A model generated the notes under the pieces. It worked only from the letters and a program-made list of their open reading frames with translations, searched no databases and was not told the origin of the DNA. From Candidatus Terasakiella magnetica (GTDB lineage Bacteria > Pseudomonadota > Alphaproteobacteria > Rhodospirillales > Terasakiellaceae), in assembly GCF_900093605.1 (NCBI RefSeq), contig NZ_FLYE01000012.1, positions 310,001-374,000 on the forward strand: DNA of 64,000 bases. The letters are read 5' to 3'. Both the position numbers and the translations under genes were made by a program. Position 1 is the first letter of the stretch. Each line of letters starts with the position of its first letter. Positions 16,572 through 63,371 of the stretch are shown piece by piece.

Positions 16572-16601
16572 AACACCTTTTATTGCGCTGCAAAAGGTGT
16601 T
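16572..16601. promoter_or_regulatory. Perfect inverted repeat and TGC-type motif upstream of mch
   Basis: AACACCTTTT (16572-16581) and AAAAGGTGTT (16592-16601) form perfect 10-base arms around a 10-base loop. Overlapping it off-centre is TTATTGCGCTGCAAAA (16580-16595), which resembles motifs found before etfB, ccr and phaZ. No T-run follows, so it does not look like the terminator of the receiver gene. It lies 48-77 bases before the mch ATG. Operator function is inferred. Confidence 0.5.
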
Positions 16602-16648
16602 AGAAAACGTCCAAATTCTGATTCTTTAAGATTTAAGGACGTCCAGTT

Positions 16649-17704
16649 ATGACAAAAACAAATCCGGGTAACTTCTTTGAAGATTTCTCCCTTGGTCAAG
16701 AGCTTGTTCACGCCACACCGCGCACGGTAACCGAAGGCGATGTATCTTTATATACAGCGCTTTATGGTTTTCGCCATATGCCGCATTCGGCTGAACCTTA
16801 TGCCATGGAACTGGGCTTTGAAGCCATGCCACTTGATGACATGCTCGCCTTCCATATGGTTTTTGGTAAAACAGTACCGGACGTCTCCTTAAACGCAGTG
16901 GCTAACCTTGGCTATGCAGCGGGTCGTTTTGGCGCACCTGTTTATCCCGGTGATACGGTGCGCACCACCTCAACCGTGATCGGTTTGAAAGAAAACTCCA
17001 ACGGCAAAACAGGCGTTGTGTATGTCAATTCAGTGGGTGTGAACCAGAAAGATGAAGTCGTTCTGGATTATGTACGCTGGGTGATGGTGAAGAAGAAAAA
17101 TCTTGATGCCCCAACACCAGAAGCCGTTATTCCTGAGCTGCCAAAAGTGGTGGATGTGGATGATCTGGTTATTGCTGAAGGTCTGGATTTCTCTAAATAT
17201 GATTGTGAACTGGCTGGCTCTCCTCACCTGTGGGAAGACTATGAAGTGGGCGAGAAAATCGACCATATTGATGGCATGACCATTGAGGAAGCTGAACACC
17301 AGATGGCAACGCGCTTGTATCAAAACACAGCAAAAGTTCACTTTGATCAGTTTGCCGCAAAAGATAACCGCTTTGGCAAACGCCTGATTTATGGCGGTCA
17401 CATTATCTCATTGGCACGCGGCCTGTCTTTCAACGGTTTGGGCAATGCCTTTAAAGTGGCTGCGATCAATGCTGGCGCACATGCCAACCCGACTTTCTCT
17501 GGCAATACAATCTTTGCATGGTCTGAAGTGTTGGATAAGCAGGAAATCAAAGGCCGCTCTGACATGGGCGCGCTTCGTCTGCGTCTGGTTGCGACAAAAG
17601 ATCAGCCAACTGAGGGCTTCCCTTATAAAGGTGAAGACGGCAAATACAGCCCAGATGTTGTTCTTGATCTAGATTACTGGGTTTTGATGCCACGTCGCGG
17701 CTAA
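16649..17704 (+). CDS. mch: Mesaconyl-CoA hydratase (Mch), double MaoC/hot-dog domain
   Basis: Mch hydrates mesaconyl-C1-CoA to beta-methylmalyl-CoA in the ethylmalonyl-CoA pathway. The 351-residue protein has two MaoC-like halves: TEGDVSLYTALYGFRHMPHS in the first, and HFDQFAAKDNRFGKRLIYGG followed by HIISLARGLSFNGLGNAF in the second. That is the standard Mch layout. ecm, ccr and mcd, whose products supply mesaconyl-CoA, lie 12-16 kb downstream in this window, which supports the specific call. It is followed by a strong terminator and appears monocistronic. Confidence 0.92.
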   Translation: MTKTNPGNFFEDFSLGQELVHATPRTVTEGDVSLYTALYGFRHMPHSAEPYAMELGFEAMPLDDMLAFHMVFGKTVPDVSLNAVANLGYAAGRFGAPVYPGDTVRTTSTVIGLKENSNGKTGVVYVNSVGVNQKDEVVLDYVRWVMVKKKNLDAPTPEAVIPELPKVVDVDDLVIAEGLDFSKYDCELAGSPHLWEDYEVGEKIDHIDGMTIEEAEHQMATRLYQNTAKVHFDQFAAKDNRFGKRLIYGGHIISLARGLSFNGLGNAFKVAAINAGAHANPTFSGNTIFAWSEVLDKQEIKGRSDMGALRLRLVATKDQPTEGFPYKGEDGKYSPDVVLDLDYWVLMPRRG

Positions 17705-17727
17705 TTATATCCAAAGAATTTGATTTA

Positions 17728-17766
17728 AAGCGCCTTTCTCGTTATCGCGGGAAAGGCGTTTTTTAT
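17728..17766 (+). terminator. Rho-independent terminator of mch
   Basis: CGCCTTTC (17731-17738) and GAAAGGCG (17751-17758) pair around a loop containing TCGTTATCGCGG, followed by TTTTTTATT. It ends the mch transcript. Confidence 0.88.
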
Positions 17767-17887
17767 TGGGCTTTGTGTCCCCTAAAATATCGCAAAGTAG
17801 AGTTTTATCTAATATAAAATTACCCTAATAAAACAAGTAATTATGAAACGAATTATAATCAATTAAGAAAAATTCGCATTTCTTACT

Positions 17888-17915
17888 TTGACTTCAGCGC
17901 CATAGACCTTACTCT
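17888..17915 (+). promoter_or_regulatory. Possible sigma70 promoter of the parA-like operon
   Basis: TTGACT (17888-17893), a 16-base spacer and TACTCT (17910-17915) lie 32 bases before the parA-like ATG. The surrounding 17770-17946 is AT-rich. The -10 match is modest. Confidence 0.4.
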
Positions 17916-17946
17916 AAATAGAAACAGGGATAAAAAGAGTAGATCA

Positions 17947-18954
17947 ATGAGCGCTATAATCGCCGTGATGAACCATAAGGGCGGGGTGGGGAAAACCACA
18001 ACGACCTTGAATATGGCCAGTGCATTTGCCGCTGGGGCGAAGTCTGTACTCATTATTGATATGGACCCGCAAAGCAATGCGGCCACAGGCTTGGGCCTTG
18101 ATGCCAAATCCATTTCCAAAGGCAGCTATGAGCTTGTTTTGGGTGATGCCAAAATTCCAGATGTGGCCTTAGAGACCGATCTTCCCAATGTCTCGCTTAT
18201 CCCCGCGACTTTCCAATTAGCGGCCTTAAGCAGTGTGTCACCGGATGAGGAAGACCCAGAATTTTGGTTGCGCGAAAGCTTGCAGGAAGATGCCACAGAA
18301 TATGATTATATCCTGATTGATTGCCCGCCGTCTTTTGGCATTCTCAGTCTGAATGCGCTTGTAGCGGCCCAAAAGGTGATTGTGCCGGTGCAAAGTGAGA
18401 GTTTCGCCATTGCCGGATTGCAACAGATGGAAAAATCCATCAATGATATCCGCCTTGAGGCCGAGCATGATCTTGATTTTCGCATTCTCATGACCTTGAG
18501 TGACCAGAACCAGAAGCTCCATAAACTGGTTAATCAGGAAGTGCGCGCCCATTTTAAAGAACAGGTTTTTGAAACCTCCATTCCTGTTGAGCCTAAAATC
18601 GCAGAAAGTGCCTTTTTAGGGCGCCCTGTTGTGGTGCATTCCCCAAATGTGCGCGGGGCACAGTCTTATGTGCGTGCGTGTGCAGAATGTATGCAATGGA
18701 TTGAAGGTGGGGAGCGTTTAAGCCATCAACAGGCAATCGTAAATGGTCTTAAACAGTGGCTCAATGATGATAGTATTACCGCTGCTAATGAACCTGTGCA
18801 TTTAGACGATCAACCCATAGCGCCCTCCCATTCGCCTGCTCATCCCATCCATGTGGAGAGTGAGCCCAATTCCTTTAGAATCGGTATTCGCAATGGGGTG
18901 ATCCTTGCGCTGGCCCTTACCGCAGGTATGGCCTTGGCCTTTTTGGGGATGTAA
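17947..18954 (+). CDS. ParA/MinD-like ATPase with C-terminal membrane anchor
   Basis: This 335-residue ParA-superfamily ATPase has the deviant Walker A motif NHKGGVGKTTTTLNMA (signature Lys11 and Lys16), DMDPQSNAATG and ILIDCPPSFG. After the ATPase domain (about residues 1-260) comes a polar linker and a final hydrophobic segment (about 315-334), which is unusual because chromosomal ParA proteins are soluble. No parB follows. Instead a secreted TIGR02285 protein starts 4 bases after the stop. A positioning or regulatory ATPase tied to the membrane is an inference; it is not the chromosomal ParA of a parAB pair. Confidence 0.85.
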   Translation: MSAIIAVMNHKGGVGKTTTTLNMASAFAAGAKSVLIIDMDPQSNAATGLGLDAKSISKGSYELVLGDAKIPDVALETDLPNVSLIPATFQLAALSSVSPDEEDPEFWLRESLQEDATEYDYILIDCPPSFGILSLNALVAAQKVIVPVQSESFAIAGLQQMEKSINDIRLEAEHDLDFRILMTLSDQNQKLHKLVNQEVRAHFKEQVFETSIPVEPKIAESAFLGRPVVVHSPNVRGAQSYVRACAECMQWIEGGERLSHQQAIVNGLKQWLNDDSITAANEPVHLDDQPIAPSHSPAHPIHVESEPNSFRIGIRNGVILALALTAGMALAFLGM

Positions 18955-18958
18955 TGCG

Positions 18959-19831
18959 ATGCGTTTTGTCCTGCTTGTTTTTTTGTTTTTCAGTTGTTTA
19001 TCAACTGCGCAGGCCAAAGAGAGCATTACTTGGTTTATCTGGGATTTACCCCCTGAGTTTGTGAAGGCAGGTAAATGGAAAAATCAGGGTTATGGCGATA
19101 AATTCCTGAAATATTTTATGACGCATTTACCGGACTATGATCATAAAATCCAACGGGTCAATATCCCGCGTTGGAGCAGTGAAGTCTTAAAGCCACAGCG
19201 CTGTTCAGCCCATTTATGGGGCGGTTTCTTTCCGGGGCAATTGGTTGAGTCTAAGCCTTATTCTTTTACTCCGCCCCATGTGCTTATTTTTCATAAACGC
19301 CATGCAAAGCGTATTGGAAGTCCGGGAAGTACAGTCTCCATCGGAGAGCTTTTAAAGCAGTCGGATTTAAAACTGATCATTCAGAAAATCAATTTTAATG
19401 AAGATGCCAAGCAAACCCGCTATCCCGTGCTTTTCCCATGGTTAAAACCCTATATGGGGCAGAAAAACCTCATTGAACTTTCCGGTGGGCGCAATGATGT
19501 GGATTTACGCCTGCTTAAAAGCGGGCGGGCCGATTACACGATCGGTTATCCCACCACCATCACCACCCAACAACGGGTTTTTGGCATCGAAAATGAGTAT
19601 GTCAGCTACAACATTCGCGAACATTACCTGTTTAAAAAGGTCTATGTGGCTTGTAACAATAGTGACTTTGGCAAAGAGGTCATTGCGAAGGTCAATAAAA
19701 TCCTGACCAAGGAAACTTTGCGCACTTTCCTTGGTTATCATGAGGAATGGAACGATAACGACCCTTATTTTCGCCAGACCTATACGGATTATTTTATCAA
19801 CGATAAAGAGTTGCTGCGCGTGATTGACTAA
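18959..19831 (+). CDS. Periplasmic solute-binding-like protein, TIGR02285 family (copy 1)
   Basis: This 290-residue protein has a clear signal peptide (MRFVLLVFLFFSCLSTAQA, cleavage after AQA), so it is exported. The mature part begins KESITWFIWDLPPEF and carries GQG-type and HLPDYDHKI segments, typical of TIGR02285, a branch of the type II periplasmic-binding fold of unknown ligand. ATG 18959 is preferred over upstream starts because it begins the signal peptide. It is coupled to the parA-like gene (4-base gap) and related to the protein at 27625. Its stop overlaps the xthA stop on the other strand by two bases. Confidence 0.82.
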   Translation: MRFVLLVFLFFSCLSTAQAKESITWFIWDLPPEFVKAGKWKNQGYGDKFLKYFMTHLPDYDHKIQRVNIPRWSSEVLKPQRCSAHLWGGFFPGQLVESKPYSFTPPHVLIFHKRHAKRIGSPGSTVSIGELLKQSDLKLIIQKINFNEDAKQTRYPVLFPWLKPYMGQKNLIELSGGRNDVDLRLLKSGRADYTIGYPTTITTQQRVFGIENEYVSYNIREHYLFKKVYVACNNSDFGKEVIAKVNKILTKETLRTFLGYHEEWNDNDPYFRQTYTDYFINDKELLRVID

Positions 19832-20619: not shown

Positions 20620-20661
20620 TGGTTTTTCCTTTGGGTGGTGAATTTCTTATGCCGTCTTGTA

Positions 20662-20795
20662 GCAGAAAAGAAATGCGCCCGACTAGGGGGTGTCGGGCGC
20701 AAAAGGCTGTCTCTCATGGTTGAGAGTATCATCGGTGGCAGGGGAACCACCTTGTGAACGGCTGATAATCTAGGGTAGGACTGCCGTTCAGCTAT
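20662..20795 (-). ncRNA. Candidate sRNA with four hairpins and C-rich loops
   Basis: Read on the minus strand, four hairpins follow one another. TGAACGGC/GCCGTTCA (20790-20755) has a 20-base loop containing TCCTACCCT. GGTGG/CCACC (20751-20734) has loop TTCCCCTG. CTCTCA/TGAGAG (20726-20711) has loop ACCA. GCGCCCGAC/GTCGGGCGC (20700-20675) has loop ACCCCCTA and is followed by ATTTCTTTTCT, like an intrinsic terminator. Three loops are C-rich and could pair with ribosome sites. No clear promoter was found; identity with a known family is not established. Confidence 0.55.
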
Positions 20796-20824
20796 TAAAT
20801 GGGGATTGATTCCTCAAATTATTA

Positions 20825-29134: not shown

Positions 29135-31108
29135 TTAAGCTGCTTCTGTCTCTTCAACCAGATTAGCAATATCAGCCATGATGGCGTTGATTTCGTAATC
29201 TTTTGGCGTATAGATACGCGACACACCAGCCTTGACCAGAACTTCTTCGTCCTCAGGTGGAATGATGCCGCCCACAACCAATGGAATATCATTGATCTCG
29301 GCTTCTTTCATGCGATCAAGCACTTCCGTCACCAGTGGAATGTGAGAACCCGACAGGATGGAGAGACCGATCACATGCACACCTTCTTCTAGGGCTGCAT
29401 TTACGATTTGTGCAGGGGTTAGGCGGATGCCTTCATATACCACTTCCATACCGGCATCACGGGCACGAACGGCAATCTGTTCAGCACCGTTTGAGTGACC
29501 ATCAAGACCGGGTTTACCCACAAGCATTTTAACGCGGCGGCCCATTTTATCAGACAGGGCATCAACCTTGGTGCGCACGTCTGCGAGTTGGTCGCCATGT
29601 TTGGCACTTGAGGCCCCGCCAACACCTGTTGGGGCGCGGTATTCACCAAACACTTCACGAAGCGCTGTACCCCACTCACCCGTTGTGACACCTGCGTGCG
29701 CAGCCGCAATGGAAGGTTCCATAATATTGCGGCCTTCTTTAGCAGCAGATTTCAGCTCTTCAAGGGCGGCATCGGCCTTGGCACTATCGCGTTGATCTCG
29801 CCATGCTTTTAAACGTTCGATTTGCTCAGCTTCAGCGGCTGGATCAACCGTTAGGATGGCACCATCGCCTGCTGTTAGTGGGCTGTCTTCACCTTCTGCA
29901 AATTTATTTACACCCACAACGGTCTGCTCACCTGCTTCAATGGCAGCCAAGCGTGTGGCGTTGGATTCTACAAGCTTCTGTTTCATATAGCCTGTTTCAA
30001 CAGCTGGGATAGAGCCACCCATTTCATCAATGCGTGCAAGCTCATCACGTGCGCCTTCTTTAAGTTCTTCAACTTTGCGCGTGACTTCAGCAGAGCCATC
30101 AAACAGATCGCCATATTCTAAAAGGTCTGTCTCATAAGCCATGATCTGCTGTAGGCGCAGTGACCATTGCTGATCCCATGGGCGCGGCAGGCCAAGGGCT
30201 TCGTTCCAAGCCGGCAGTTGAACCGCGCGCGCGCGGGCATTTTTAGACAGGGTCACAGCCAACATTTCAAGCAAGATACGATAAACGTTGTTTTCTGGCT
30301 GTTGTTCGGTCAGGCCCAAAGAGTTGACCTGTACGCCGTAGCGGAAACGACGGTATTTTTCTTCCTCAACACCGTAGCGCTCACGGCAAATTTCGTCCCA
30401 CAGCTCGGTGAAGGCACGCATCTTACAAATCTCGGTTACGAATCGGATGCCCGCGTTCACGAAGAAGGAAATACGACCCACTACTCTTGGGAAATCTTCA
30501 TCAGGGACTTGACCAGAGGCTTTTAGGGAATCGAGAACGGCAATACCTGTTGCCAAGGCATAGGCCAGTTCTTGTTCTGGCGTCGCGCCTGCTTCTTGTA
30601 AGTGATAAGAACAAACATTCATCGGGTTCCATTTTGGGATTTCACGATAGGTGAAGGCCGCAATGTCTGTAATCAGCTTCAGGCTCGGCTCAGGCGGGAA
30701 GATATAAGTCCCGCGCGATAGATATTCTTTAATGATGTCGTTCTGAGTTGTCCCGGCAAGCTCGTTACGTGCTGCACCTTGGCGCTCAGCGGTCGCAATA
30801 TAAAGCGCAAGCTGCCAAGCTGCCGGGGCATTAATGGTCATGGAGGTGTTCATCTTGTTTAACGGAATTTCGTTAAACAGTGTTTCCATATCCCCAAGAT
30901 GCGAAATAGGAACGCCTACTTTACCAACTTCACCGCGCGAGAGTACATGATCAGAGTCATAACCCGTCTGTGTTGGCAAATCAAAAGCAACAGACAGACC
31001 CGTTTGACCACGGCCTAGGTTGGTACGAAACAGTTTGTTTGTTTCAACTGCTGAACTGTGACCTGAATAAGTCCGAAACAGCCATGGGCGATCTTTTTGT
31101 ACAGTCAT
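29135..31108 (-). CDS. ecm: Ethylmalonyl-CoA mutase (Ecm), B12-dependent
   Basis: Ecm rearranges (2R)-ethylmalonyl-CoA to methylsuccinyl-CoA with adenosylcobalamin. ATG 31108 follows an AGGAG site and gives 657 residues. The N-terminal barrel starts RTYSGHSSAVETN and contains GLSVAFDLPTQTGYDSD. The C-terminal cobalamin-binding domain has GLDGHSNG (the DxHxxG base-off motif), GLSILSGSH and VVGGIIP. The length and single-chain layout fit Ecm rather than two-subunit methylmalonyl-CoA mutase, and the divergent ccr-mcd pair confirms it. A PduO-type adenosyltransferase for its cofactor is encoded at 37062. Confidence 0.94.
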   Translation of the reverse strand: MTVQKDRPWLFRTYSGHSSAVETNKLFRTNLGRGQTGLSVAFDLPTQTGYDSDHVLSRGEVGKVGVPISHLGDMETLFNEIPLNKMNTSMTINAPAAWQLALYIATAERQGAARNELAGTTQNDIIKEYLSRGTYIFPPEPSLKLITDIAAFTYREIPKWNPMNVCSYHLQEAGATPEQELAYALATGIAVLDSLKASGQVPDEDFPRVVGRISFFVNAGIRFVTEICKMRAFTELWDEICRERYGVEEEKYRRFRYGVQVNSLGLTEQQPENNVYRILLEMLAVTLSKNARARAVQLPAWNEALGLPRPWDQQWSLRLQQIMAYETDLLEYGDLFDGSAEVTRKVEELKEGARDELARIDEMGGSIPAVETGYMKQKLVESNATRLAAIEAGEQTVVGVNKFAEGEDSPLTAGDGAILTVDPAAEAEQIERLKAWRDQRDSAKADAALEELKSAAKEGRNIMEPSIAAAHAGVTTGEWGTALREVFGEYRAPTGVGGASSAKHGDQLADVRTKVDALSDKMGRRVKMLVGKPGLDGHSNGAEQIAVRARDAGMEVVYEGIRLTPAQIVNAALEEGVHVIGLSILSGSHIPLVTEVLDRMKEAEINDIPLVVGGIIPPEDEEVLVKAGVSRIYTPKDYEINAIMADIANLVEETEAA

Positions 31109-31411
31109 CTCAAACGCTCCTAAAGCGGTAATAAAATTACATGTAATGATTCTCAAAAGGTATGATTATTTCAGAAATGAATCATCAATTGGCGATAATC
31201 TACCACTATGTGCATCGCAAAAAAAGCCCGAAATCGCGCTCAAACTAAGATTTTTTTTCAACAAGTTGCATATGTAACCTTTATTTTGTGCGCAGATGCA
31301 AAAAAAGCTTGTCTCATCGTCAAAATGGTGTAGACCAGATATCAAAGAAATCGTCGATTAGGTCATCGACAGTTGGAAACATTTTTTGAAAGCCAAGGGA
31401 GTATCCCAATT
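31109..31411. promoter_or_regulatory. Divergent ecm/ccr control region
   Basis: This 303-base gap must hold both promoters. For ecm, TTGCGA (31220-31215) with TATCGC 17 bases further is a possible minus-strand promoter overlapping the motif TGTGCATCGCAA (31209-31220). Towards ccr lie a near-palindrome GTTGCATATGTAAC (31265-31278) and a second TGC-type site, TTATTTTGTGCGC with ATGCAAAA (31281-31303). The 11-mer GCAAAAAAAGC occurs twice (31217 and 31298). Promoter positions are tentative. Confidence 0.55.
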
Positions 31412-32680
31412 ATGAGTTACCTCGCCGAAGTTACAGCGAATCAAGAAAAGAAAGACCTTTATGAGATTGGTGAAGTGCCACCTCTGGGTCACGTACCTGC
31501 AAAAATGTACGCTTGGGCCATCCGTCGTGAACGCCACGGCAACCCAGATACAGCGATGCAGTGCGAAGTCGTTGAAACGCCAAAACTAGATAGCCACGAA
31601 GCGCTTGTTTACGTTATGGCTGCTGGTGTGAACTACAACGGTGTTTGGGCTTCTTTGGGTAAGCCGATTTCTGTATTTGACGTTCACAACGAAGATTACC
31701 ACATTGCGGGTTCTGATGCGTCTGGCATCATCTGGGCTGTTGGTGACAAAGTGAACTTGTGGAAAGTGGGTGACGAAGTTGTTGTTCACTGTAACCAGGA
31801 TGATGGCGATGATGAAGAATGTAACGGTGGCGACCCTATGTTCTCTAAATCCAACCGTATCTGGGGTTACGAAACACCTGACGGTTCTTTTGCACAATTC
31901 TGTCGCGTTCAAGCACAACAATTGATGGAACGTCCTAAGCATTTGTCTTGGGAAGAATCAGCTTGTTACACGCTGACATTGGCAACCGCTTATCGTATGC
32001 TATTTGGTCACCGTCCACACATCTTGCGTCCAGGCCATAACGTATTGGTTTGGGGTGCATCTGGTGGTCTTGGTTCCTTTGCGGTTCAGCTTTGTGCTGT
32101 TGCAGGTGCCAATGCAATTGGTGTGATCTCTGATGAAACAAAGCGTGATTTCGTTATGGGCTTGGGCGCTAAGGGCGTTCTTAACCGTAAAGACTTCAAT
32201 TGCTGGGGCCAATTGCCAGAAGTAAACGGCGACGGTTTCAACGATTACATGAAAGAAACTCGTAAATTTGGTAAAGCCATCTGGGAAATCACAGGTAAAG
32301 GCAACGATGTTGACTTTGTATTTGAACACCCGGGTGAAATGACATTCCCTGTATCTTGTAACGTTGTAAAACGTGGCGGTATGGTTGTCTTCTGTGCGGG
32401 TACATCTGGTTTCAACCTGACAATGGATGCCCGTTTTGTCTGGATGCGCCAAAAACGTATTCAGGGTTCTCACTTTGCCAACTTGAAGCAAGCTTCACAA
32501 GCCAACAAACTTGTTGTTGAGCGTCGCATTGACCCATGTATGTCTGAAGTCTTCCCATGGGCTGACATTCCAGAAGCACACATGAAGATGCTTGCAAACA
32601 AACACCTTCCAGGCAACATGGCTGTTTTGGTTAATGCTAAAACAACTGGCCTTAAAACACTGGAAGAAAACCTCGATTAA
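31412..32680 (+). CDS. ccr: Crotonyl-CoA carboxylase/reductase (Ccr)
   Basis: Ccr reductively carboxylates crotonyl-CoA to ethylmalonyl-CoA with NADPH and CO2, the key step of the EMC pathway. ATG 31412 follows GGGAG and gives 422 residues. It is a medium-chain dehydrogenase/reductase: substrate half with YNGVWASLGKP and GSDASG, cofactor-binding loop VLVWGASGGLGSFAVQL, and the Ccr-specific tail RIQGSHFAN. A start 13 codons upstream (TTG) is less likely. mcd follows after 95 bases and a hairpin. Confidence 0.95.
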   Translation: MSYLAEVTANQEKKDLYEIGEVPPLGHVPAKMYAWAIRRERHGNPDTAMQCEVVETPKLDSHEALVYVMAAGVNYNGVWASLGKPISVFDVHNEDYHIAGSDASGIIWAVGDKVNLWKVGDEVVVHCNQDDGDDEECNGGDPMFSKSNRIWGYETPDGSFAQFCRVQAQQLMERPKHLSWEESACYTLTLATAYRMLFGHRPHILRPGHNVLVWGASGGLGSFAVQLCAVAGANAIGVISDETKRDFVMGLGAKGVLNRKDFNCWGQLPEVNGDGFNDYMKETRKFGKAIWEITGKGNDVDFVFEHPGEMTFPVSCNVVKRGGMVVFCAGTSGFNLTMDARFVWMRQKRIQGSHFANLKQASQANKLVVERRIDPCMSEVFPWADIPEAHMKMLANKHLPGNMAVLVNAKTTGLKTLEENLD

Positions 32681-32775: not shown

Positions 32776-34437
32776 ATGAGCGATCTTATCCTCTCTGATC
32801 TTTTGCCTTCTGCTGGTCGCGCTGTTGAAGCTGCTGACGTCTTGTTGGAAAAAGCCAAAGATGCTGTTTCTGAAAAAGTCATGGTTGATGGCCGTGTCAA
32901 TTCTGCCAAACTTGAAGCAGAGCAAACAGCCGCTCACGGTTTGTCCTGGATGGCAACCTATGTTGAATCCCTGCGTCAAATGCACAAATGGGGTGAGAAG
33001 CTAACTGAAGAAGGTAGCTTTGGTGAGTTTGAACAATTGATCCTGCAATGCGCCTTTGGTGAATATTGCACACAGTTGACTCACGGCATTGCCATTTCAC
33101 AAGTAGAAATTATCCGTCCCCATGATATGGGCCTGACATCTGCGGATTGTCACGCCTACATGAAAGACGATGTAAAACGCTTTAAATATGAAGGCAACAC
33201 ACCAGCTGTTCGCCGCAAAATTGCTGAATATGCCAAAGACGGTCTGGAAACAGGGTCCTTTGGGACAACAGGTCTGGACGAAGAACTGGAAATGATCCGT
33301 GATCAGTTCCGTCGCTTTGTTGACGAGCAAGTTATTGAAGAAGCCCATAAATGGCATGAAAAAGACGAACTCATTCCCCTTGAGATCGTTGAAGCGGTTG
33401 CTGAAATGGGTGTCTTTGGTCTGACTATTCCTGAGGAATATGGCGGGCTTGGCATGGGCAAAACAGCCATGTGTGTTGTGACAGAAGAATTGTCACGCGG
33501 CTATATCGGTGTGGGTTCCCTTGGCACACGTAACGAAATCGCCGGTGAGTTGATCCGCTTGGGCGGTACAGAAGAGCAAAAAGAGAAATATCTCCCGATG
33601 ATCTCTTCTGGTGAAATTCTGCCAACAGCTGTTTTCACAGAGCCAAACACAGGTTCTGACCTTGGTTCGCTTAAAACACGTGCGGTTTTAGAAAATGGTA
33701 CATGGAAAGTGACAGGCAATAAAACCTGGATCACCCATGCATCGCGTTCTGATTTGATGACCTTGCTCGTGCGTACCAACCCGGATGAAAAAGGCTATAA
33801 AGGTCTGTCTATGTTGTTGGCTGAAAAACCACGTGGCACAGAAGAAGATGCTTTCCCGGCTGAAGGTATGGACGGCGGCGAAATCGAGGTTCTCGGTTAT
33901 CGTGGCATGAAAGAATATGAATTGGCATTTGACGGTTTTGAAGTACCAGAAGGTCAATTGCTCGGCGGTGAAGAAGGCCAAGGCTTTAAACAGCTGATGG
34001 AAACCTTTGAATCTGCACGTATCCAAACTGCTGCGCGCGCCTCTGGTGTGGCGACATCGGCGATGGAACTGGGCATTCGTTACGCAACAGAGCGTGTTCA
34101 ATTTGGTAAGCCGATTTTCGAATTCCCACGTGTTCACGCCAAAATCGCTTGGATGACGGTTGAAACCATGATCGCGCGTCAGTTGACCTACTTCTCTGGT
34201 TGGGAAAAAGATCACGATGTACGTTGTGACATCGAAGCCGGTATGGCGAAATTGTTGGCAGCACGTGTGGCTTGGTCAAATGCGGATAACGCATTGCAAA
34301 TCCACGGCGGTAACGGTTATGCGACGGAATATCCGATCTCTCGCGTTTTGTGTGACTCACGTATCCTCAATGTCTTTGAAGGTGCCGCTGAGATCCAAGC
34401 AGGCGTGATTGCACGTGGTCTTTTGACACGTCGTTAA
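32776..34437 (+). CDS. mcd: (2S)-methylsuccinyl-CoA dehydrogenase (Mcd)
   Basis: Mcd oxidises methylsuccinyl-CoA to mesaconyl-CoA, passing electrons to ETF. Its 553 residues are longer than usual acyl-CoA dehydrogenases (about 380) because of an N-terminal helical extension of some 160 residues, as in known Mcd proteins. The dehydrogenase part has GVFGLTIPEEYGGLG, TEPNTGSDL, KTWITHASRSDLM and QIHGGNGYATEYPISR, the last with the C-terminal flavin-binding region. It is downstream of ccr. etfBA at 37805 would accept its electrons. Confidence 0.94.
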   Translation: MSDLILSDLLPSAGRAVEAADVLLEKAKDAVSEKVMVDGRVNSAKLEAEQTAAHGLSWMATYVESLRQMHKWGEKLTEEGSFGEFEQLILQCAFGEYCTQLTHGIAISQVEIIRPHDMGLTSADCHAYMKDDVKRFKYEGNTPAVRRKIAEYAKDGLETGSFGTTGLDEELEMIRDQFRRFVDEQVIEEAHKWHEKDELIPLEIVEAVAEMGVFGLTIPEEYGGLGMGKTAMCVVTEELSRGYIGVGSLGTRNEIAGELIRLGGTEEQKEKYLPMISSGEILPTAVFTEPNTGSDLGSLKTRAVLENGTWKVTGNKTWITHASRSDLMTLLVRTNPDEKGYKGLSMLLAEKPRGTEEDAFPAEGMDGGEIEVLGYRGMKEYELAFDGFEVPEGQLLGGEEGQGFKQLMETFESARIQTAARASGVATSAMELGIRYATERVQFGKPIFEFPRVHAKIAWMTVETMIARQLTYFSGWEKDHDVRCDIEAGMAKLLAARVAWSNADNALQIHGGNGYATEYPISRVLCDSRILNVFEGAAEIQAGVIARGLLTRR

Positions 34438-37061: not shown

Positions 37062-37625
37062 ATGGTTACTTTAACCAAAATCTACACACGCGGTGGTGAT
37101 AAGGGCGAGACCTCTTTGGGGGACGGAACCCGCATTGCCAAACATGACCTTCGGGTTGATGCTTATGGCTGTGTAGACGAGACAAACGCCGCAATCGGGC
37201 TTGCCCGCCTTCATACTGAAGGTGATATGGATGAGATGCTGGAACGTATCCAAAACGACCTTTTTGATTTAGGTGCCGACTTGTGCACACCTGAAGAGGG
37301 ACGAAAAAGTGAAGGCGCCTTGCGCATTGTTCAAGAACAAATTGATCGCCTCGAATCGGAGATTGATGTGATGAATGAACAGCTTGAGCCCTTAACTTCT
37401 TTTGTTTTACCCGGCGGCAGTTCTGCTGCGGCCTATCTTCATTTGTGTCGCACGGTTTGTCGGCGCGCAGAAAGGCTCTGTAGTGAATTGGCTCTGCGAG
37501 ACAGTATTAATCCGCTCTGTGTGCAATACCTCAACCGCTTGTCTGATCATGCTTTTGTCATGGCTCGTTTCCTCAACGATAAAGGGAAATCGGACGTTTT
37601 GTGGAAACCGGGTGCGCATCGCTAG
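37062..37625 (+). CDS. Cob(I)alamin adenosyltransferase, PduO type
   Basis: This enzyme transfers adenosyl from ATP to cob(I)alamin, making the coenzyme that Ecm uses. The 187-residue protein starts MVTLTKIYTRGGDKGETSL, the ATP-binding motif of PduO-type enzymes, followed by RVDAYGCVDETNA, FVLPGGSSAAAYLHLCRTVCRRAER and LNRLSDHAFVMAR. All are family hallmarks. It precedes etfBA-hbd, an order often seen in alphaproteobacteria. Confidence 0.95.
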   Translation: MVTLTKIYTRGGDKGETSLGDGTRIAKHDLRVDAYGCVDETNAAIGLARLHTEGDMDEMLERIQNDLFDLGADLCTPEEGRKSEGALRIVQEQIDRLESEIDVMNEQLEPLTSFVLPGGSSAAAYLHLCRTVCRRAERLCSELALRDSINPLCVQYLNRLSDHAFVMARFLNDKGKSDVLWKPGAHR

Positions 37626-37680: not shown

Positions 37681-37709
37681 TTGACATTCGACCTTTCAAG
37701 GCTTATTGT
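37681..37709 (+). promoter_or_regulatory. Sigma70-type promoter of etfBA
   Basis: TTGACA (37681-37686), a 17-base spacer and TATTGT (37704-37709) form a strong housekeeping promoter, 96 bases before the etfB ATG. The -10 overlaps the TGC-type motif 37703-37720. Confidence 0.75.
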
Positions 37710-37720
37710 GCAATGCGAAA
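37703..37720. promoter_or_regulatory. Operator-like TGC motif over the etfB promoter
   Basis: TTATTGTGCAATGCGAAA overlaps the -10 box and the expected transcription start. It matches TTATTGTGCAGTGCACAA upstream of phaZ at 15 of 18 positions. A site here would suit a repressor. The regulator is unknown; PhaR, which binds TGC-rich sites in related bacteria, is an inference. Confidence 0.5.
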
Positions 37721-37804
37721 TAATTGATCGGCAAAGGGGTTTTCCCCGATGCTCATAAACAAAGCCTCAGGCGTTAACTAAACGACTTCTGAGAAAGGAA
37801 TTCC

Positions 37805-38554
37805 ATGAAGGTTCTCGTCGCAGTAAAGCGCGTAATTGATTACAACGTGAAGATCCGCGTTAAGTCGGACAACACGGGTGTTGAAACCGCAAACGTCAAA
37901 ATGTCTATGAATCCATTTGACGAAATTGCAGTTGAAGAAGCTATCCGCCTTAAAGAAGCAGGTACAGCAACGGAAGTTGTTGTTGTTTCTATGGGTGAGA
38001 AAAAATGTCAGGAAACCATCCGTACCGCCTTGGCGATGGGTGCAGACCGCGGCATTTTGGTCGAAACAACTGATGAGTTGCAGCCACTGGCCGTTGCCAA
38101 GCTCCTCAAAGGTATCGTTGAAAAAGAAAGCCCGGACATGATTGTTCTGGGTAAGCAAGCGATTGACGACGACAATGGTCAAACAGGCCAGATGTTGGGT
38201 GCATTGCTTGATTGGCCACAAGGCACATTCGCTTCTAAAGTGGAAGTTGCTGAAGGTTCTGTCAACGTGACACGTGAAGTAGACGGCGGTCTGCAAACGG
38301 TTAAGCTGGCTTTGCCTGCAATCGTTACAACTGACTTGCGCTTGAACGAGCCACGTTATGCCGCCCTGCCAAACATCATGAAAGCCAAGAAAAAGCCATT
38401 GGAGACTGTCTCTCCGGCTGATTTTGGTGTTGATGTGACGCCACGTTTGAAAACCTTGAAAGTTGAAGAACCTGCTGCCCGTTCAGCCGGGATCAAGGTT
38501 GAAACCGTTACTGAGCTGGTGGACAAACTGAAAAACGAAGCGAAGGTGATATAA
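37805..38554 (+). CDS. etfB: Electron transfer flavoprotein subunit beta (EtfB)
   Basis: EtfB and EtfA form the FAD/AMP heterodimer that takes electrons from acyl-CoA dehydrogenases such as Mcd and gives them to ETF-ubiquinone oxidoreductase. The 249-residue product has the family start [19 protein letters not shown], the nucleotide-binding stretch [17 protein letters not shown] and the signature region [22 protein letters not shown]. etfA starts two bases after the stop. It is transcribed from the promoter at 37681. Confidence 0.97.
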
Positions 38555-38555
38555 G

Positions 38556-39485
38556 ATGAGCGTTCTTGTTATTGCTGAACACGACAATGCGTCCATCAAA
38601 GACGCAACGTTGAACACGGTTAGCGCTGCTAAAGAACTTGGTGACGTAACTGTTTTGGTTGCTGGCACAGGTTGTGGCGCTGCGGGTGAAGCGGCTGCTA
38701 AAATCGATGGTGTTGCCAAGGTTTTGGTTGCTGATGACGCTGCTTATGACCACCAGATGGCTGAAAATATGACCAAATTGGTTGTGTCTTTGGCAGGTGA
38801 TTACGCACATATTCTGGCACCTGCAACAACAACGGGCAAAAACTTTATGCCACGTGTTGCGGCCCTTTTGGATGTTGCGCAAATTTCTGACATCACAAAG
38901 GTTGAGTCTGCTGATACATTCGTTCGCCCGATCTATGCGGGTAACGCTATGGCAACAGTCCAGTCTAGTGATGAGAAAAAAGTCATTACTGTTCGTGGTA
39001 CGGCTTTTGATGCAGCCCCTGCTGAAGGTGGTTCTGCTTCTGTTGAAACAGTTGGTGCACAAGGCGATAGCGGCAAGTCCAGCTTCGTCGGTGAAGAACT
39101 CTCTGTTTCTGAGCGTCCAGAACTGACGTCTGCCAAGGTCATCATCTCTGGTGGTCGTGGTATGGCAAATGGCGAAAACTTCGCTTTGCTTGAAAAAGTT
39201 GCTGACAAACTTGGTGCGGCGATTGGTGCGTCACGCGCGGCTGTTGATGCCGGCTTCGTTCCAAACGACATGCAAGTGGGTCAAACAGGTAAGATCGTTG
39301 CGCCTGACCTCTATATCGCTGTAGGGATCTCTGGTGCTATTCAACACTTGGCGGGTATGAAAGACTCCAAAGTGATTGTGGCGATCAACAAAGATGAAGA
39401 AGCTCCTATCTTCCAAGTTGCTGATTATGGCTTGGTTGCGGATCTCTTCGATGCGGTTCCGGAATTGGAAAAAGAGCTGGGTTAA
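38556..39485 (+). CDS. etfA: Electron transfer flavoprotein subunit alpha (EtfA)
   Basis: The 309-residue FAD-binding subunit has the N-terminal ETF fold ([20 protein letters not shown]) and the C-terminal FAD domain with [29 protein letters not shown] and [16 protein letters not shown], the family signature. It is coupled to etfB by a 1-base gap and followed by hbd after 57 bases. Confidence 0.97.
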
Positions 39486-39542: not shown

Positions 39543-40424
39543 ATGTCTGCAGAAATTAAAACAATCGGTGTTATTGGTGCCGGTCAAATGGGTAACGGTA
39601 TCGCACATGTCGCTGCTGTTGCAGGTTATGATGTTAAACTGATCGACGTGAGTGCAGATGCACTAGACGCCGCAGTGGCAACCATCACCAAAAACTTGGT
39701 TCGCCAAGTTAAGAAAGAGAAGATCACACAAGCCGATCAAGATAAGGCCTTGGGTCATATCGAAACATCGACTGAAATGTCTGCTCTGTCTTCTGCCGAT
39801 CTGGTTATTGAAGCTGCAACCGAGAATGAAGAAGTTAAAAAAGCTATCTTCCAACAGGTTTGCGCTGAAGTAAGCGATGAATGCTTGCTCGCTTCAAACA
39901 CCTCTTCTATTTCCATCACACGTCTGGCGGCCTCTACAGACCGCCCAGAGCGTTTCATTGGTATGCACTTCATGAACCCGGTTCCGGTCATGAAGCTGGT
40001 TGAGCTGATCCGTGGTATTGCCACAGATGAAAGCACTTATGAAACGATTAAGACAATGACGGCACGTCTGGGCAAAACCTCTGTTTCTGCAGAAGATTTC
40101 CCGGCCTTTATCGTAAACCGTATCTTGCTGCCGATGATTAACGAAGCCGTATACACTCTTTATGAAGGTGTGGGTTCGGTTAATTCTATCGATACAGCCA
40201 TGCGTTTGGGTGCTAACCACCCAATGGGTCCGCTACAACTGGCTGACTTTATTGGTCTGGATACCTGCCTTGCTATCATGAACGTTCTTCATGAAGGTCT
40301 GGCCGATACTAAATATCGCCCATGTCCATTGCTGGTTAAATATGTTGAAGCTGGCTGGCTGGGTCGCAAGACGGGCCGTGGTTTCTACGACTACAGTGGT
40401 GATGAGCCCGTGCCGACGCGCTAA
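39543..40424 (+). CDS. hbd: 3-hydroxybutyryl-CoA dehydrogenase (Hbd)
   Basis: Hbd interconverts 3-hydroxybutyryl-CoA and acetoacetyl-CoA with NAD(P). The 293-residue protein has the dinucleotide loop IGVIGAGQMGNGIAHVAA, SNTSSISITRLA, the catalytic region GMHFMNPVPVMKLVE (His/Glu dyad) and the C-terminal helix motif LGANHPMGPLQLADFIGLD. It belongs to the etfBA-hbd group common in bacteria with PHB or EMC metabolism. A terminator follows directly. Confidence 0.96.
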   Translation: MSAEIKTIGVIGAGQMGNGIAHVAAVAGYDVKLIDVSADALDAAVATITKNLVRQVKKEKITQADQDKALGHIETSTEMSALSSADLVIEAATENEEVKKAIFQQVCAEVSDECLLASNTSSISITRLAASTDRPERFIGMHFMNPVPVMKLVELIRGIATDESTYETIKTMTARLGKTSVSAEDFPAFIVNRILLPMINEAVYTLYEGVGSVNSIDTAMRLGANHPMGPLQLADFIGLDTCLAIMNVLHEGLADTKYRPCPLLVKYVEAGWLGRKTGRGFYDYSGDEPVPTR

Positions 40425-59671: not shown

Positions 59672-59685
59672 GTTCAGTCTACTTC

Positions 59686-60339
59686 CTACACTTCAAATTC
59701 TTTAACCAAACGCCCGATGGTGGCACGGACTTCGGCAATGCCAGCTCCTTTTTCAGAACTGGTGACAAGGATATCAGGATGTGCAGCCGGATGTTTAGCT
59801 AATTCTTTCTCAATATCGCTTATATGTTTATCGAGCTCTTTCTTTTTGGCTTTATCAGCCTTGGTCACGATGATCTGATAAGACATCGCCGCCGTGTCCA
59901 TCATTTCCATGACGGGGCGGTCGGTATTTTTAATACCGTGGCGACCATCGATCAAAACAAAGGCGCGGCGCAACTGGGGGCGACCACGAAGATAAGAAAA
60001 GACCACATCCTGCCATTTTTTAACTTCACCCACAGGGGCTTTGGCATAGCCATAGCCAGGCTGATCACAAAAGACCAGACGATTGATGATGTTAAAGAAG
60101 TTGAGCTGTTGCGTGCGCCCGGGTGTGGAGGAGGTGCGTGCCAGATCACGACGCCCACAAAGCGCATTGATTAGGCTGGATTTACCCACGTTGGAACGTC
60201 CGGCAAAACAAATCTCGACGGCTTTTGTATCAGGCAACTGTTCAAGATGGGCCGCACCCAGCATGAAATCTGTCTCTTGTGTGAAAAGCCAACGACCAAA
60301 TTCAATTTCGTCGTCACTAAAATCTTGGGTATCAGTCAT
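59686..60339 (-). CDS. engB: Ribosome biogenesis GTPase EngB (YsxC/YihA)
   Basis: EngB helps assemble the 50S ribosomal subunit. The 217-residue GTPase has [14 protein letters not shown] (G1), SSTPGRTQ (G2), CDQPGYGYA (G3) and VTKADK (G4). It lies between yidC and argB on the same strand, 14 bases before argB. A hairpin that can end yidC separates it from yidC. Confidence 0.95.
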
Positions 60340-60349
60340 GAGAGGAACC

Positions 60350-60386
60350 TAAAAAGCATCATCCCCGCGAGTAGTGCGGGGATGAT
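60350..60386 (-). terminator. Terminator-like hairpin after yidC
   Basis: ATCATCCCCGC and GCGGGGATGAT (60386-60376 and 60368-60358 on the minus strand) pair perfectly around a 7-base loop, followed by GCTTTTT. It resembles the CATCCCCGC-type dispersed hairpins and may partly end the yidC transcript before engB. Confidence 0.75.
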
Positions 60387-60392
60387 ATTGAT

Positions 60393-62129
60393 TTACTTCT
60401 GTGCTTCCATGCGTTTTGTAATCACATATTGCTGAGCAATGGAAAGAAGGTTGTTCCAGACCCAGTAGATCACAAGACCGGCTGGGAAGGCTGCCAGCAT
60501 GAAGGTGAAGACGACAGGTAAGAACATCATCATCTTGGCCTGAACCGGATCAGTCGGTTGTGGGTTCAGTTTCTGCTGGATGAACATGGACAGACCCATA
60601 AGCAACGGCCATACACCGATCATCAACAATTGTGGTGGGTCCCATGGGATCAAACCAAACAGGTTGAAGATAGTGGTCGGGTCCGGTGCGGACAAATCCT
60701 GAATCCAGCCATAAAATGGCGCATGGCGCATTTCAATGGAAACGAACAACACTTTATAAAGGGCAAAGAACACAGGAATTTGCAGCAAAATTGGCAAACA
60801 ACCAGAAGCCGGGTTGGCTTTCTCGCGTTTATAAAGCGCCATCATTTCCTGGTTCATACGCTGCTTGTCATCGGCAAACTGTTTTTGCAGTTGCTTGATC
60901 TTTGGACCGAGCGTTTTCATTTTCGCCATAGAGCGATAAGACGTGTTGGCCAGTGGGAAGAACAAAATCTTCACCCCAACAGTCAGTGCCAAAATAGCCA
61001 GACCAAAGTTACCCAAAATGCCGTAGAGCCAAGACATGGCGATGAAGAACGGCTTGGTGATGAAGAAGAACCAGCCGAAATCGATCGCCAGATCAAATTC
61101 CTGAACGCCTGTTGTTTCTTCATAATGTGTCAGCATATCAAGTTCTTTGGCACCGGCAAAAAAGGTGCTTTTGAAATTGATTGTCTGGCCTTGGCTCGCT
61201 GAGAGTTTCGGGCCGAGGTAATCTGTTTGATATTTATCCAGATTATCGCTGCGGTAATGGCTGAAACGGTGGTTCACCATGACATTTTGGTCAGGAACCA
61301 GTGCGGTCAGCCAGTATTTATCGGTAATGCCGATCCAGCCACCTTTAACCGGGTCAACCTTCTGTGTGCCTTTTTCCTGAAGGTCATCATAATCGACTTC
61401 TTCAAGAACATGGTCAAACACACCCAGCAGACCTTCATGCAAAATGAAGAAGCCACTTGTTTGTGGTGTACCAGAGCGCGAGATCAGACCATATGGGTAA
61501 AGGTCAACGCCTGCGCTGCTTACGTTGGCAACAGAATCGTTAATGGTAAAGGCGTAATTTTCATCAAGGGCGATGTTACGGGTAAAGAGCAAGCCTTCGC
61601 CGTTATCCCAGTTCAGGCTGACAGAACCACCTGCTTTAAGCACGGTGTTGTCTGTGGACCAAACTGTCTCAGCCGTTGGGACTTTTACATTTGGGGCAGA
61701 CCAGCCAAATTCTGCATAATAGGCAGATTGCAGACCTTTTGGATTAAGCAGTGTGATTTTATCACTGTCTTCGCTTAACTCTTCACGGTAATCGCTCAAG
61801 ATCAGGTCATCAATGCGACCGCCTTGAATAGAGATGGAACCCTCAAGGCGTGGCGATTCGATCTTGATGCGCGCAGAAGCATCCAGTTTTTGTGAGCGCG
61901 TCGCCATGGCTTTTTTCATTGCCTCGGCTGCGCCACCTGGAATTTGCGGTGCATAGGATTGATCAGCTGCGTCTTGGTTGGCTGCAGGTGCTTGTGGTGT
62001 TGAGCCACCCTGCGCGGTTTGTTGTTCTTGTTGAACCGGCTGTTCAGCCGGTGGGAACAACAGTTGGGAGCCAAAAAGAATTACGATTGAAAGAGCAATC
62101 GCTAAAAACATATTTTTCTGGTCGTTCAT
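60393..62129 (-). CDS. yidC: Membrane protein insertase YidC
   Basis: YidC inserts inner-membrane proteins, alone or with SecYEG. The 578-residue protein has an N-terminal membrane helix (MFLAIALSIVILFG), a Q/P/A-rich linker, the large periplasmic domain, then the conserved core from about residue 350 (YGILGNFGLAILALTVGVKI) with KMKTLGPKIKQLQ and five helices, ending in the AAFPAGLVIYWVWNNLLS segment. This is the Gram-negative YidC layout. Confidence 0.97.
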   Translation of the reverse strand: MNDQKNMFLAIALSIVILFGSQLLFPPAEQPVQQEQQTAQGGSTPQAPAANQDAADQSYAPQIPGGAAEAMKKAMATRSQKLDASARIKIESPRLEGSISIQGGRIDDLILSDYREELSEDSDKITLLNPKGLQSAYYAEFGWSAPNVKVPTAETVWSTDNTVLKAGGSVSLNWDNGEGLLFTRNIALDENYAFTINDSVANVSSAGVDLYPYGLISRSGTPQTSGFFILHEGLLGVFDHVLEEVDYDDLQEKGTQKVDPVKGGWIGITDKYWLTALVPDQNVMVNHRFSHYRSDNLDKYQTDYLGPKLSASQGQTINFKSTFFAGAKELDMLTHYEETTGVQEFDLAIDFGWFFFITKPFFIAMSWLYGILGNFGLAILALTVGVKILFFPLANTSYRSMAKMKTLGPKIKQLQKQFADDKQRMNQEMMALYKREKANPASGCLPILLQIPVFFALYKVLFVSIEMRHAPFYGWIQDLSAPDPTTIFNLFGLIPWDPPQLLMIGVWPLLMGLSMFIQQKLNPQPTDPVQAKMMMFLPVVFTFMLAAFPAGLVIYWVWNNLLSIAQQYVITKRMEAQK

Positions 62130-62216
62130 TTCAGCCTTTATTTCCGCGAAGGAACCCCTGATTATTAAAAAAACGACCTTTTATATATGACTAGTCTTTA
62201 GGCAAAAAGTCGCTTC

Positions 62217-62486
62217 TTATTTAGAACTATGATGTGAGCCGCATCCACAGGATGACGATTCGTTTTTTTGTGGAACAGGATCAAAACCCGATCCCCCCCA
62301 CGGATTGCAGCGAAAGATTCTTTTGACCCCCATCCAACTCCCTTTAAAGGGACCGAATCGTTCAATGGCTTGGATAGCATATTGCGAACAGGTCGGGCTA
62401 TACCGACAGGCCCCGGGCAGAATCGGCGAAATACCATATTGGTAAATACGCACAATTGCCTTTGCTATATAAGCCAAAAAGGTCAT
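62217..62486 (-). CDS. yidD: Membrane insertion efficiency factor YidD
   Basis: YidD is a small amphipathic protein that aids YidC. The 89-residue product has the hallmark [19 protein letters not shown] and [15 protein letters not shown]. Its start overlaps the rnpA stop (four bases), so the two are translated together. The C-terminal tail is Cys/Ser/His-rich (SCGCGSHH), longer than in E. coli. Confidence 0.96.
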
Positions 62487-62923
62487 TTCAGACTCTTTTC
62501 GTGCTTTGTTTTTTGCTTTGGTGGCGGGGCCTCATTATGAACCCCCGTTTTCCAGAGCGCGGTTTTTAAATCTTTTTCCAATTGGGCAAAGGGACGGGTA
62601 AGCGTTTCTTTGCGACCGATTAAAACCAGATCAAAACCAGATCGGGCCTTTTTAAACAAGACAAGGTCAGCAACAGCCCGAAGTCGCCGTCTGGCGCGAT
62701 TGCGCTCAGGGGCATTTCCGACTTTTTTGCTGACCGTAAATCCGATCCGAATATCCGGTTGCCCTTCCGAAATCGCATTAGGTTTTAGACTCTTATATAT
62801 AGATACAAGAGGCTTTGACCTTTTGCGGACTTGTAAAATCAGGCCGGGTGTTACCCACTTCTTACGAGTCGAAGCGACTGAAAGAAATTCACGTCGTTTT
62901 TTGAGACGTGGAATACGGGACAT
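62483..62923 (-). CDS. rnpA: Ribonuclease P protein component (RnpA)
   Basis: RnpA binds the RNase P RNA and assists tRNA 5' maturation. ATG 62923 after AAGGA gives 146 residues; a TTG two codons earlier is possible. It starts with the basic RLKKRREF motif and contains the signature [14 protein letters not shown]. The C-terminal extension is lysine- and proline-rich. It follows rpmH, the standard pairing. Confidence 0.95.
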
Positions 62924-62962
62924 ACCCAACCATCCTTTACGGGCAAGTCAAGCGTAAGAGAC

Positions 62963-63097
62963 TTACGCAGACAGGCGCTTGCGGCCTTTGGCGCGGCGAG
63001 CAGAAAGAACGCGGCGGCCTGCAACAGTAGCCATACGGCTACGGAAACCATGGCGGCGTTTGCGAACGAGCTTGCTGGGCTGATACGTGCGTTTCAC
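62963..63097 (-). CDS. rpmH: 50S ribosomal protein L34 (RpmH)
   Basis: A GTG-initiated minus-strand frame of 44 residues begins [18 protein letters not shown] and ends KGRKRLSA, which is ribosomal protein L34. A GGAG ribosome site lies about 8 bases upstream of the GTG. It is the first gene of the rnpA-yidD-yidC group. Confidence 0.97.
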
Positions 63098-63144
63098 GGG
63101 TCAACTCCGTTAAATTAGTTGAAAACATAAGTAAACGAGCCCGC

Positions 63145-63173
63145 TGTATAAGGGTTTGGGGACCTTAAGTCAA
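63145..63173 (-). promoter_or_regulatory. Sigma70-type promoter of rpmH
   Basis: On the minus strand TTGACT (63173-63168), a 17-base spacer and TATACA (63150-63145) form a near-consensus promoter about 45 bases upstream of the rpmH GTG. Confidence 0.8.
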
Positions 63174-63256
63174 CGGACTCATTAGCTTGATCCTAATAAA
63201 AGTACATTTAATAAGCTTCCCTGTAAAAAAATCTAGATTTTAGCCGCGCGGTTATG

Positions 63257-63292
63257 TTATTGTGCAGTGCACAAACAATTTGTGCATCGCAA
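63257..63292. promoter_or_regulatory. TGC-type operator-like motifs upstream of phaZ
   Basis: TTATTGTGCAGTGCACAA (63257-63274) contains the perfect 15-base palindrome TTGTGCAGTGCACAA and matches the etfB site. TTGTGCATCGCAA (63280-63292) shares the 12-mer TGTGCATCGCAA with the ecm/ccr region. A third element TTATTTGTGCGTAAA lies at 63353-63367. Regulatory function is inferred. Confidence 0.55.
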
Positions 63293-63371
63293 TGTTCTCT
63301 TTATCTTATAAATAGACACTGTATGCAGTTTCATATGCAGCCAACTTTTGTATTATTTGTGCGTAAATTGG

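Follow-up and report, generated by a model that had tools for sequence, protein, structure and literature searches.

A predicted PhaR operator before polyhydroxybutyrate, ethylmalonyl-CoA pathway and electron transfer flavoprotein genes of Candidatus Terasakiella magnetica

In Sinorhizobium meliloti and Bradyrhizobium diazoefficiens, the regulator PhaR is described as a repressor of phasin and depolymerase genes which is removed from DNA by the storage polymer polyhydroxybutyrate (PHB), and its sites lie around the -35 region or between the -10 region and the start. Here we present the analysis of 64 kb (in the following called the window; G000:C12:310001-374000) from the 3.68-Mb assembly of Candidatus Terasakiella magnetica (G000, the own genome). 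The window holds much of the ethylmalonyl-CoA (EMC) pathway with mch, ecm, ccr and mcd, as well as etfB-etfA, encoding the electron transfer flavoprotein (ETF), and the start of the PHB depolymerase gene phaZ. An initial annotation had noticed similar short words upstream of these genes and proposed PhaR or a relative as a single regulator linking PHB mobilisation with the EMC pathway and ETF. At the sequence level, this proposal gained support, and most of the tests suggested with it turned out in its favour. It is very likely, in our judgement, that the words of the window are PhaR operators, by which PHB-titrated PhaR would control PHB mobilisation, the EMC pathway and ETF together.

The closest described system is the regulon of S. 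meliloti PhaR (AniA), for which the same site, WNWDDNYGCRNYGCRNHHWNW, and the titration of PhaR by PHB were reported (PMC12542648). Its phaP1 site TTATTGTGCACTGCACAAATT resembles the phaZ site of the window, and the site table of that study also has phasins, PHB depolymerases and nuoA1; the targets around acetyl-CoA and pyruvate are gltA, pyc, ppdK and pdh. Unlike the window, this table contains no ccr, EMC or ETF target, and the term 'ethylmalonyl' does not occur in the main text. For B. diazoefficiens, a footprint-derived consensus TGCRNYGCASMA with sites around or over the -35 region was published (PMC6201568). There, PhaR binds the promoters of pdhA, phasins and other genes, and several targets including pdhA are activated; 'ethylmalonyl', 'crotonyl-CoA' and 'electron transfer flavoprotein' are absent from the main text. 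Two other regulators are related by the pathway they serve. RamB of Paracoccus denitrificans is tied to acetyl-CoA assimilation via the EMC pathway, but it belongs to the ScfR family, has two boxes 18 bp apart and was shown to target directly the glyoxylate operon, 'PhaR' being absent from the available text (PMC10370305). CcrR of Methylobacterium extorquens, likewise reported as regulator of an EMC-pathway gene, is by contrast an activator of the TetR family, described for a single organism. What is already known comprises PhaR, the site it binds and its targets in central carbon metabolism, and the published statement closest to our proposal assigns PhaR in M. extorquens a role in partitioning the acetyl-CoA flux. 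Searches of the open-licence PMC literature turned up no paper in which ccr, the EMC pathway or ETF is named as a direct target of PhaR.

The present analysis shows the sites, how they match PhaR promoters tested elsewhere, how far they are conserved and that PhaR is present. The S. meliloti PhaR consensus WNWDDNYGCRNYGCRNHHWNW served as reference motif, and a scoring matrix was built from 25 of the 28 sites in gel-shift-tested S. meliloti promoters (Table 3 of PMC12542648), none of them taken from the present sequences. These promoters were graded as efficient or weak binding in gel shifts which assayed promoter fragments, not every single site; three of the four exoH sites, which fit less well, were not included. 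On this matrix, the training sites themselves score 14.1 to 25.3. The full consensus has exactly three matches in the window, each of them intergenic: 31205-31225 in the ecm/ccr gap, 37703-37723 before etfB and 63257-63277 before phaZ. Shuffling of the intergenic sequence yielded a mean of 0.07 matches and never three in 500 rounds, whereas whole-window shuffles gave a mean of 0.70 and reached three in 5 of 300. The core motif alone, with 30 matches in the window, stays close to the shuffles (28.0). The four top matrix scores belong to phaZ (25.3), etfB (20.2), the ecm/ccr gap (16.1) and mch (15.2), followed by a next value of 11.1. With a matrix of all 28 sites the same four lead (phaZ 24.2, etfB 20.5, ecm/ccr 15.7, mch 16.1; next 12.6).

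All seven words of the initial annotation were found at the positions it had given. As it had claimed, the etfB word shares 15 of 18 positions with the phaZ word, and the 12-mer TGTGCATCGCAA is present both at 31209 in the ecm/ccr gap and at 63281 in the phaZ leader. This recurrence, which had been taken as evidence, means little alone, as 706 distinct 12-mers repeat in the window. Among the related words, the one before mch stands: the site at 16578-16598 has one mismatch to the consensus and ranks fourth by matrix score. The other two do not fit and were rejected as PhaR sites, both being absent from the 30 core matches. In the degenerate second ccr word at 31281-31303, the half-sites lie 3 bp too far apart, and 63353-63367 is a single half-site. 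The counterpart of 31281-31303 in the genome G037 holds a full site (15.3), which looks like the loss or gain of a second operator in progress. At phaZ, the predicted operator 1 is the palindrome TTGTGCAGTGCACAA; a candidate operator 2 at 63277-63297, 20 bp from it, is weak, with a score of 10.3 and two mismatches. The mch site sits in a perfect 10-bp inverted repeat (AACACCTTTT / AAAAGGTGTT, window 16572-16601), of which the outer arms are changed and the core is kept in G016, a genome of the same genus. At etfB, the overlap of the motif with the -10 region was confirmed: the predicted operator covers the -10 of a sigma-70-type promoter TTGACA-17-TATTGT on the forward strand (37681-37709).

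Conservation was determined in the 400 bp upstream of orthologous genes; 40 genomes of the order were used, and for ccr 96 genomes of the class as well. A site was called at a matrix score of at least 12 unless stated otherwise. For phaZ, where 8 named loci (PhaR presence not checked in these) were taken in as well, 19 of 20 upstream regions carry a site, corresponding to 18 of 19 distinct ones since L038 and L117 are identical. For ccr, 18 of 24 upstream regions within the order have a site, as do 23 of 28 from other members of the class. The expectation that the words are kept in orthologous promoters holds strongly for these two genes and less so for etfB (8 of 30; a locus was available for 30 of 37 matches) and mcl (6 of 28, and 3 of 9 close orthologues), which still exceed the controls. 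In 200 symmetric column-permuted matrices, the means were 0.07 to 0.20 and the maxima 2 for each ccr set and for mcl, 4 for etfB and 5 for phaZ; shuffled promoters gave means of 0.12 to 0.35. The corresponding counts with the 28-site matrix are 19/24 and 24/28 for ccr, 19/20 for phaZ, 8/30 for etfB and 6/28 for mcl. As a background, 2 of 51 other intergenic gaps contain a match of at least 12, one of which is, by its identical score, the etfB site itself (L100); this control is small. In addition, 523 kb of called coding sequence contain 55 matches, or 0.045 per 430 bp.

The strongest result comes from beyond the window. Considering only true ccr genes (at least 66% identity) in PhaR-bearing alphaproteobacterial genomes, 38 of 45 score at least 12 and 42 of 45 at least 10; with the ecm coding sequence masked, these numbers are 37 and 42. 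Among the 45 are the own genome and two from the same genus, and one of the 38 (L072) has its match inside ecm coding sequence. Seven ccr-like genes below 66% identity were left out, three of them with a site. In the syntenic 40 kb of G016, only three matches of at least 13 exist, and these are located at mch (16.3), in the ecm/ccr gap, where the 21-mer is identical, and at etfB (16.8), where -35, -10 and operator core are kept and the spacer is changed. The etfB gene of G037 (L087) lies in a different gene context, without this promoter. Six distinct Terasakiella-like phaZ upstream regions have two sites 19 to 23 bp apart, the letters varying among species and the motif being kept. The phaZ relatives of known name that match best (86-88% identity) belong to T. 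brassicae, T. pusilla and two metagenome genomes labelled Methylocystaceae. In G016, the match to phaZ (G016:C1:3676627-3677865) is listed with one in-frame TGA. The mcl promoters of the own genome, G016 and G025 (L127, L128, L131) have two overlapping sites 13 bp apart, and the G016 copy scores 11.7.

A word count independent of the PhaR matrix led to the same motif. All 4+4 words with gaps of 0 to 8 were counted in 52 ccr upstream regions; the top words of an unmasked count were conserved ecm coding sequence and were discarded, and the count was repeated with ecm masked. The 20 words with the strongest over-representation comprise 19 pieces of TTGTGCATTGCAAA or TGCANTGCA and one word (TGCGNNGCAA) that fits YGCRNYGCR. 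The top word is found in 21 of the 52 regions, where 1.1 would be expected; in 20 shuffled sets the highest count of any word was 9. In addition, 12 of 34 records of named plasmid-borne ccr copies were scored. Four of them have a site of at least 12, located 82 to 105 bp ahead of the match start, namely those of Ruegeria sp. TM1040 (18.2), Tritonibacter mobilis (15.9), Methylobacterium aquaticum (14.0) and Paracoccus denitrificans (12.9), and no score above 8 was obtained at ccr copies of a Burkholderia and a Streptomyces.

Further sites in the own genome were located by consensus pattern searches, followed by matrix scoring of the stretches read. As predicted for PHB genes, they precede two phasin genes (23.4 and 16.6; 23.1 and 21.0) and a phaC of which the best model is class I (20.1), and one lies in the phaR/phaC gap (16.5); at the own mcl, also expected to have a site, the score is a weak 10.6. 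Sites were also detected upstream of pdhA (18.9 and 17.7), nuoA of complex I (19.2, the gene lying about 400 bp downstream of the site), a patatin-like gene (18.7) and an alanine dehydrogenase/transhydrogenase-like gene (16.1 and 14.0), and in the gap between a Ppx/GppA-type gene and a sodium/solute symporter gene of the kind including acetate symporters (16.7). The nuoA, alanine dehydrogenase/transhydrogenase-like and patatin-like gene sites lie in L050, L060 and L021 of G000. Eleven full-consensus matches score at least 18. Ten of these are intergenic or at most 60 nt from a called start; the remaining match, some 42 bp before phaC, falls in the first 105 nt of a divergent frame with an uncertain start. 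One of the strongest sites observed in the genome (23.0) belongs to a SulP-family transporter gene two genes from mcl (L030:4512-6095, G000:C45), and one may guess that this transporter supplies bicarbonate to the EMC carboxylases. Sites scoring 14.7 and 15.6 precede the genes of a P-II protein and an ammonium transporter (L187, L167; G000:C12, C9), which makes a link of PHB to nitrogen control possible.

Which regulator reads the site can be approached by its distribution. The own genome encodes one PhaR (TIGR01848 at G000:C3:61972-62283, 156.1 bits against a cut-off of 109.45), divergent from a phaC-like gene whose best model, class III, stays under its cut-off. In the class, 31 genomes have ccr, of which 30 also have PhaR, compared with 26 of the 65 genomes that lack ccr; genome size confounds this comparison. 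The only genome with a true ccr and without PhaR, G046, has no site (best ccr score -3.2), and none was found in G017, which lacks PhaR and has a distant ccr paralogue. This absence lends weak support to PhaR, such genomes being scarce. As for autoregulation of phaR, 15 of 34 phaR loci have a match of at least 12 on either side, counted irrespective of orientation.

A TetR-type activator like CcrR of M. extorquens might read the site instead, as the title of the respective paper reports CcrR as a transcription activator of an EMC-pathway gene. We regard this as improbable, since the same motif stands in the own genome before the phasin genes and phaZ, known PhaR targets, and PhaR itself accompanies ccr in all but one of the ccr-bearing genomes of the class.

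Slightly less probable still is a division of labour, in which an ScfR-family regulator (RamB, PccR) would control ccr, mcl and etfB through a look-alike site and PhaR the PHB genes only. In Paracoccus and Rhodobacter, ScfR proteins are regulators of acetyl-CoA and propionyl-CoA assimilation (PMC10370305, PMC12632250), and in Paracoccus a ramB deletion was reported to raise EMC genes 8- to 15-fold. One ScfR protein is encoded in the own genome, and the ccr sites are less symmetric than the phaZ sites. However, the family was not found in 25 of the 46 genomes examined, and the ccr site does not follow it: among PhaR-bearing genomes, a site of at least 12 is present in 22 of 24 without ScfR (21 without L072) and in 16 of 21 with ScfR. 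On this ground, ScfR was rejected as reader of the ccr site. Moreover, the paired boxes of Paracoccus RamB, with their 18-bp distance, contrast with the core YGCRNYGCR, which is that of PhaR and derives from a matrix without any EMC site. The asymmetry of the ccr sites is accounted for by -35 spacing in a third of cases.

This spacing could also mean that core-promoter sequence, namely a conserved -35 region, makes up most of the ccr words and that they are no operator, given that 15 of 44 ccr sites have a TA step at a distance of 17 bp from the right half. That reading we hold to be a very poor candidate. The left half (TGTGCA) belongs to the words of the unbiased count and falls outside a -35, the other 29 sites have no TA at 17-bp spacing, and the site position varies from -29 to -361. 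Chance, to which the many repeated 12-mers and the two misfitting words of seven might point, is the least credible explanation in view of the 500 intergenic shuffles, and site conservation far above permuted matrices refutes it for phaZ and ccr; the mch and mcl matches may still be due to chance.

Several observations, however, weigh against control of all these genes by PhaR. In the literature covered, no binding test on such promoters was found, and PhaR control of them is a prediction. The consensus alone was not specific in a genome-wide search, with 45 matches against 30 for the reversed pattern, and ranking by matrix score was then used. Strong sites also occur before genes of no obvious relevance (a PAS protein/dapD, an enoyl reductase/solute-binding protein pair and a chemotaxis protein) and inside genes, with 21.2 in a pseudouridine synthase gene and 18.1, 17.3 and 16.1 in others. 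The own mcl has just the weak site mentioned above, and conservation at mcl and etfB is patchy, the permuted matrices reaching half the etfB count. Seven of the 45 true ccr genes in PhaR-bearing genomes score below 12. Among the named ccr copies, Paracoccus pantotrophus (11.2) falls short of the threshold, no score above 8 was found at ccr of Methylobacterium bullatum, Methylocystis rosea, a Bradyrhizobium and a Rhizobium, and a Rhodococcus, outside the class, reaches 11.6. In a proteome table of Rhodospirillum rubrum (PMC7109303), Ccr and PHA depolymerase co-vary in three conditions (1.79/3.28, 0.64/0.27 and 1.93/2.40), which fits shared control. In the second of these, however, a light shift on acetate, PhaR fell to 0.44 and the depolymerase decreased while Ccr did not rise, a response that does not agree with simple repression. 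A phaR mutant of M. extorquens grew more slowly on methanol, and ccr is unnamed in the main text of that report (PMC6520949). Finally, pdhA is activated, not repressed, by PhaR in other species.

Taking both sides together, we still favour PhaR as the common regulator, for which we propose the following mechanism. Without PHB, free PhaR would block RNA polymerase by occupying the ecm/ccr gap and the promoters of phaZ, the phasin genes, etfB and, probably, mch and mcl. When PHB accumulates, PhaR would be titrated onto the granules and these genes would be released together, that is PHB mobilisation, the EMC pathway, which turns acetyl-CoA into C4 units, and ETF. Acyl-CoA dehydrogenases hand their electrons to ETF, and for this reason ETF would belong in the regulated set, where it would take the electrons of methylsuccinyl-CoA dehydrogenase. 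We infer repression as the likeliest direction for ccr and etfB, just as binding of PhaR and the physiological logic are deduced here. A TA step stands exactly 17 bp after the right-half hexamer in a third of the 44 ccr sites, as against 0 to 4 sites at other spacers; therefore the operator often seems to contain the -35, which would explain the A-rich right half of the ccr site. The own site of Terasakiella has no -35 spacing towards ccr (L061).

The genes of the window were assigned as follows. The ccr gene, crotonyl-CoA carboxylase/reductase (31412-32680, forward strand), was identified by TIGR01751 (607.7 bits, cut-off 378.55). The divergent ecm (29135-31108, reverse strand, ATG at 31108) belongs to the methylmalonyl-CoA mutase family of B12 mutases; its name, ethylmalonyl-CoA mutase, is deduced from the gene order beside ccr and mcd, the database matches being methylmalonyl-CoA mutases. 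Downstream of ccr, mcd (32776-34437, forward) has 728 bits to the acyl-CoA dehydrogenase PDB 6es9 and 286 bits to 8ciw, named (2S)-methylsuccinyl-CoA dehydrogenase. The mch gene (16649-17704, forward), encoding mesaconyl-CoA hydratase (beta-methylmalyl-CoA dehydratase), matches the beta-methylmalyl-CoA dehydratase PDB 8hgn with 480 bits, the NCBIfam hydratase models staying under their cut-offs. A cobalamin adenosyltransferase gene (37062-37625) precedes etfB (37805-38554, forward), which encodes the ETF beta subunit and reaches 117.8 bits with NF040731, under its cut-off of 445; for etfA (38556-39485, forward), the alpha subunit, every ETF-alpha model is under its cut-off. The next gene (39543-40424, forward) encodes a 3-hydroxybutyryl-CoA dehydrogenase (NF005715, 549.8 bits, cut-off 420). 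The phaZ gene (63489-64000, forward) encodes a PHB depolymerase of 417 aa and extends beyond the window end; TIGR01849 gives 219 bits on the 170 aa within the window, where the cut-off of 300.75 applies to the whole protein.

Many Alphaproteobacteria assimilate acetate and one-carbon compounds through the EMC pathway, which branches off the PHB pathway at 3-hydroxybutyryl-CoA. As far as we found, control of the EMC pathway has so far been explained organism by organism only, by CcrR, RamB and PccR. A conserved PhaR operator at ccr, if true, would tie the fate of acetyl-CoA, storage or C4 units, to one sensor of the storage polymer, which might become relevant for the engineering of EMC-derived dicarboxylic acids and of PHB. 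It also touches a puzzle in Methylobacterium, where PHB-less cells struggle on one- and two-carbon substrates although the pathway needs no polymer. In an extended reading, which we hold to be about as likely as not, PhaR would stay free without granules and keep ccr shut, which would explain the growth trouble of such cells. Instability of phaC mutants is quoted in PMC6520949, and growth of S. meliloti phbC mutants on pyruvate was reported to be restored by phaR loss. Loss of phaR should likewise cure the defect of phaC mutants. The recurrence of the site at ccr in many Alphaproteobacteria suggests that the PHB store gates the use of two-carbon food in these bacteria.

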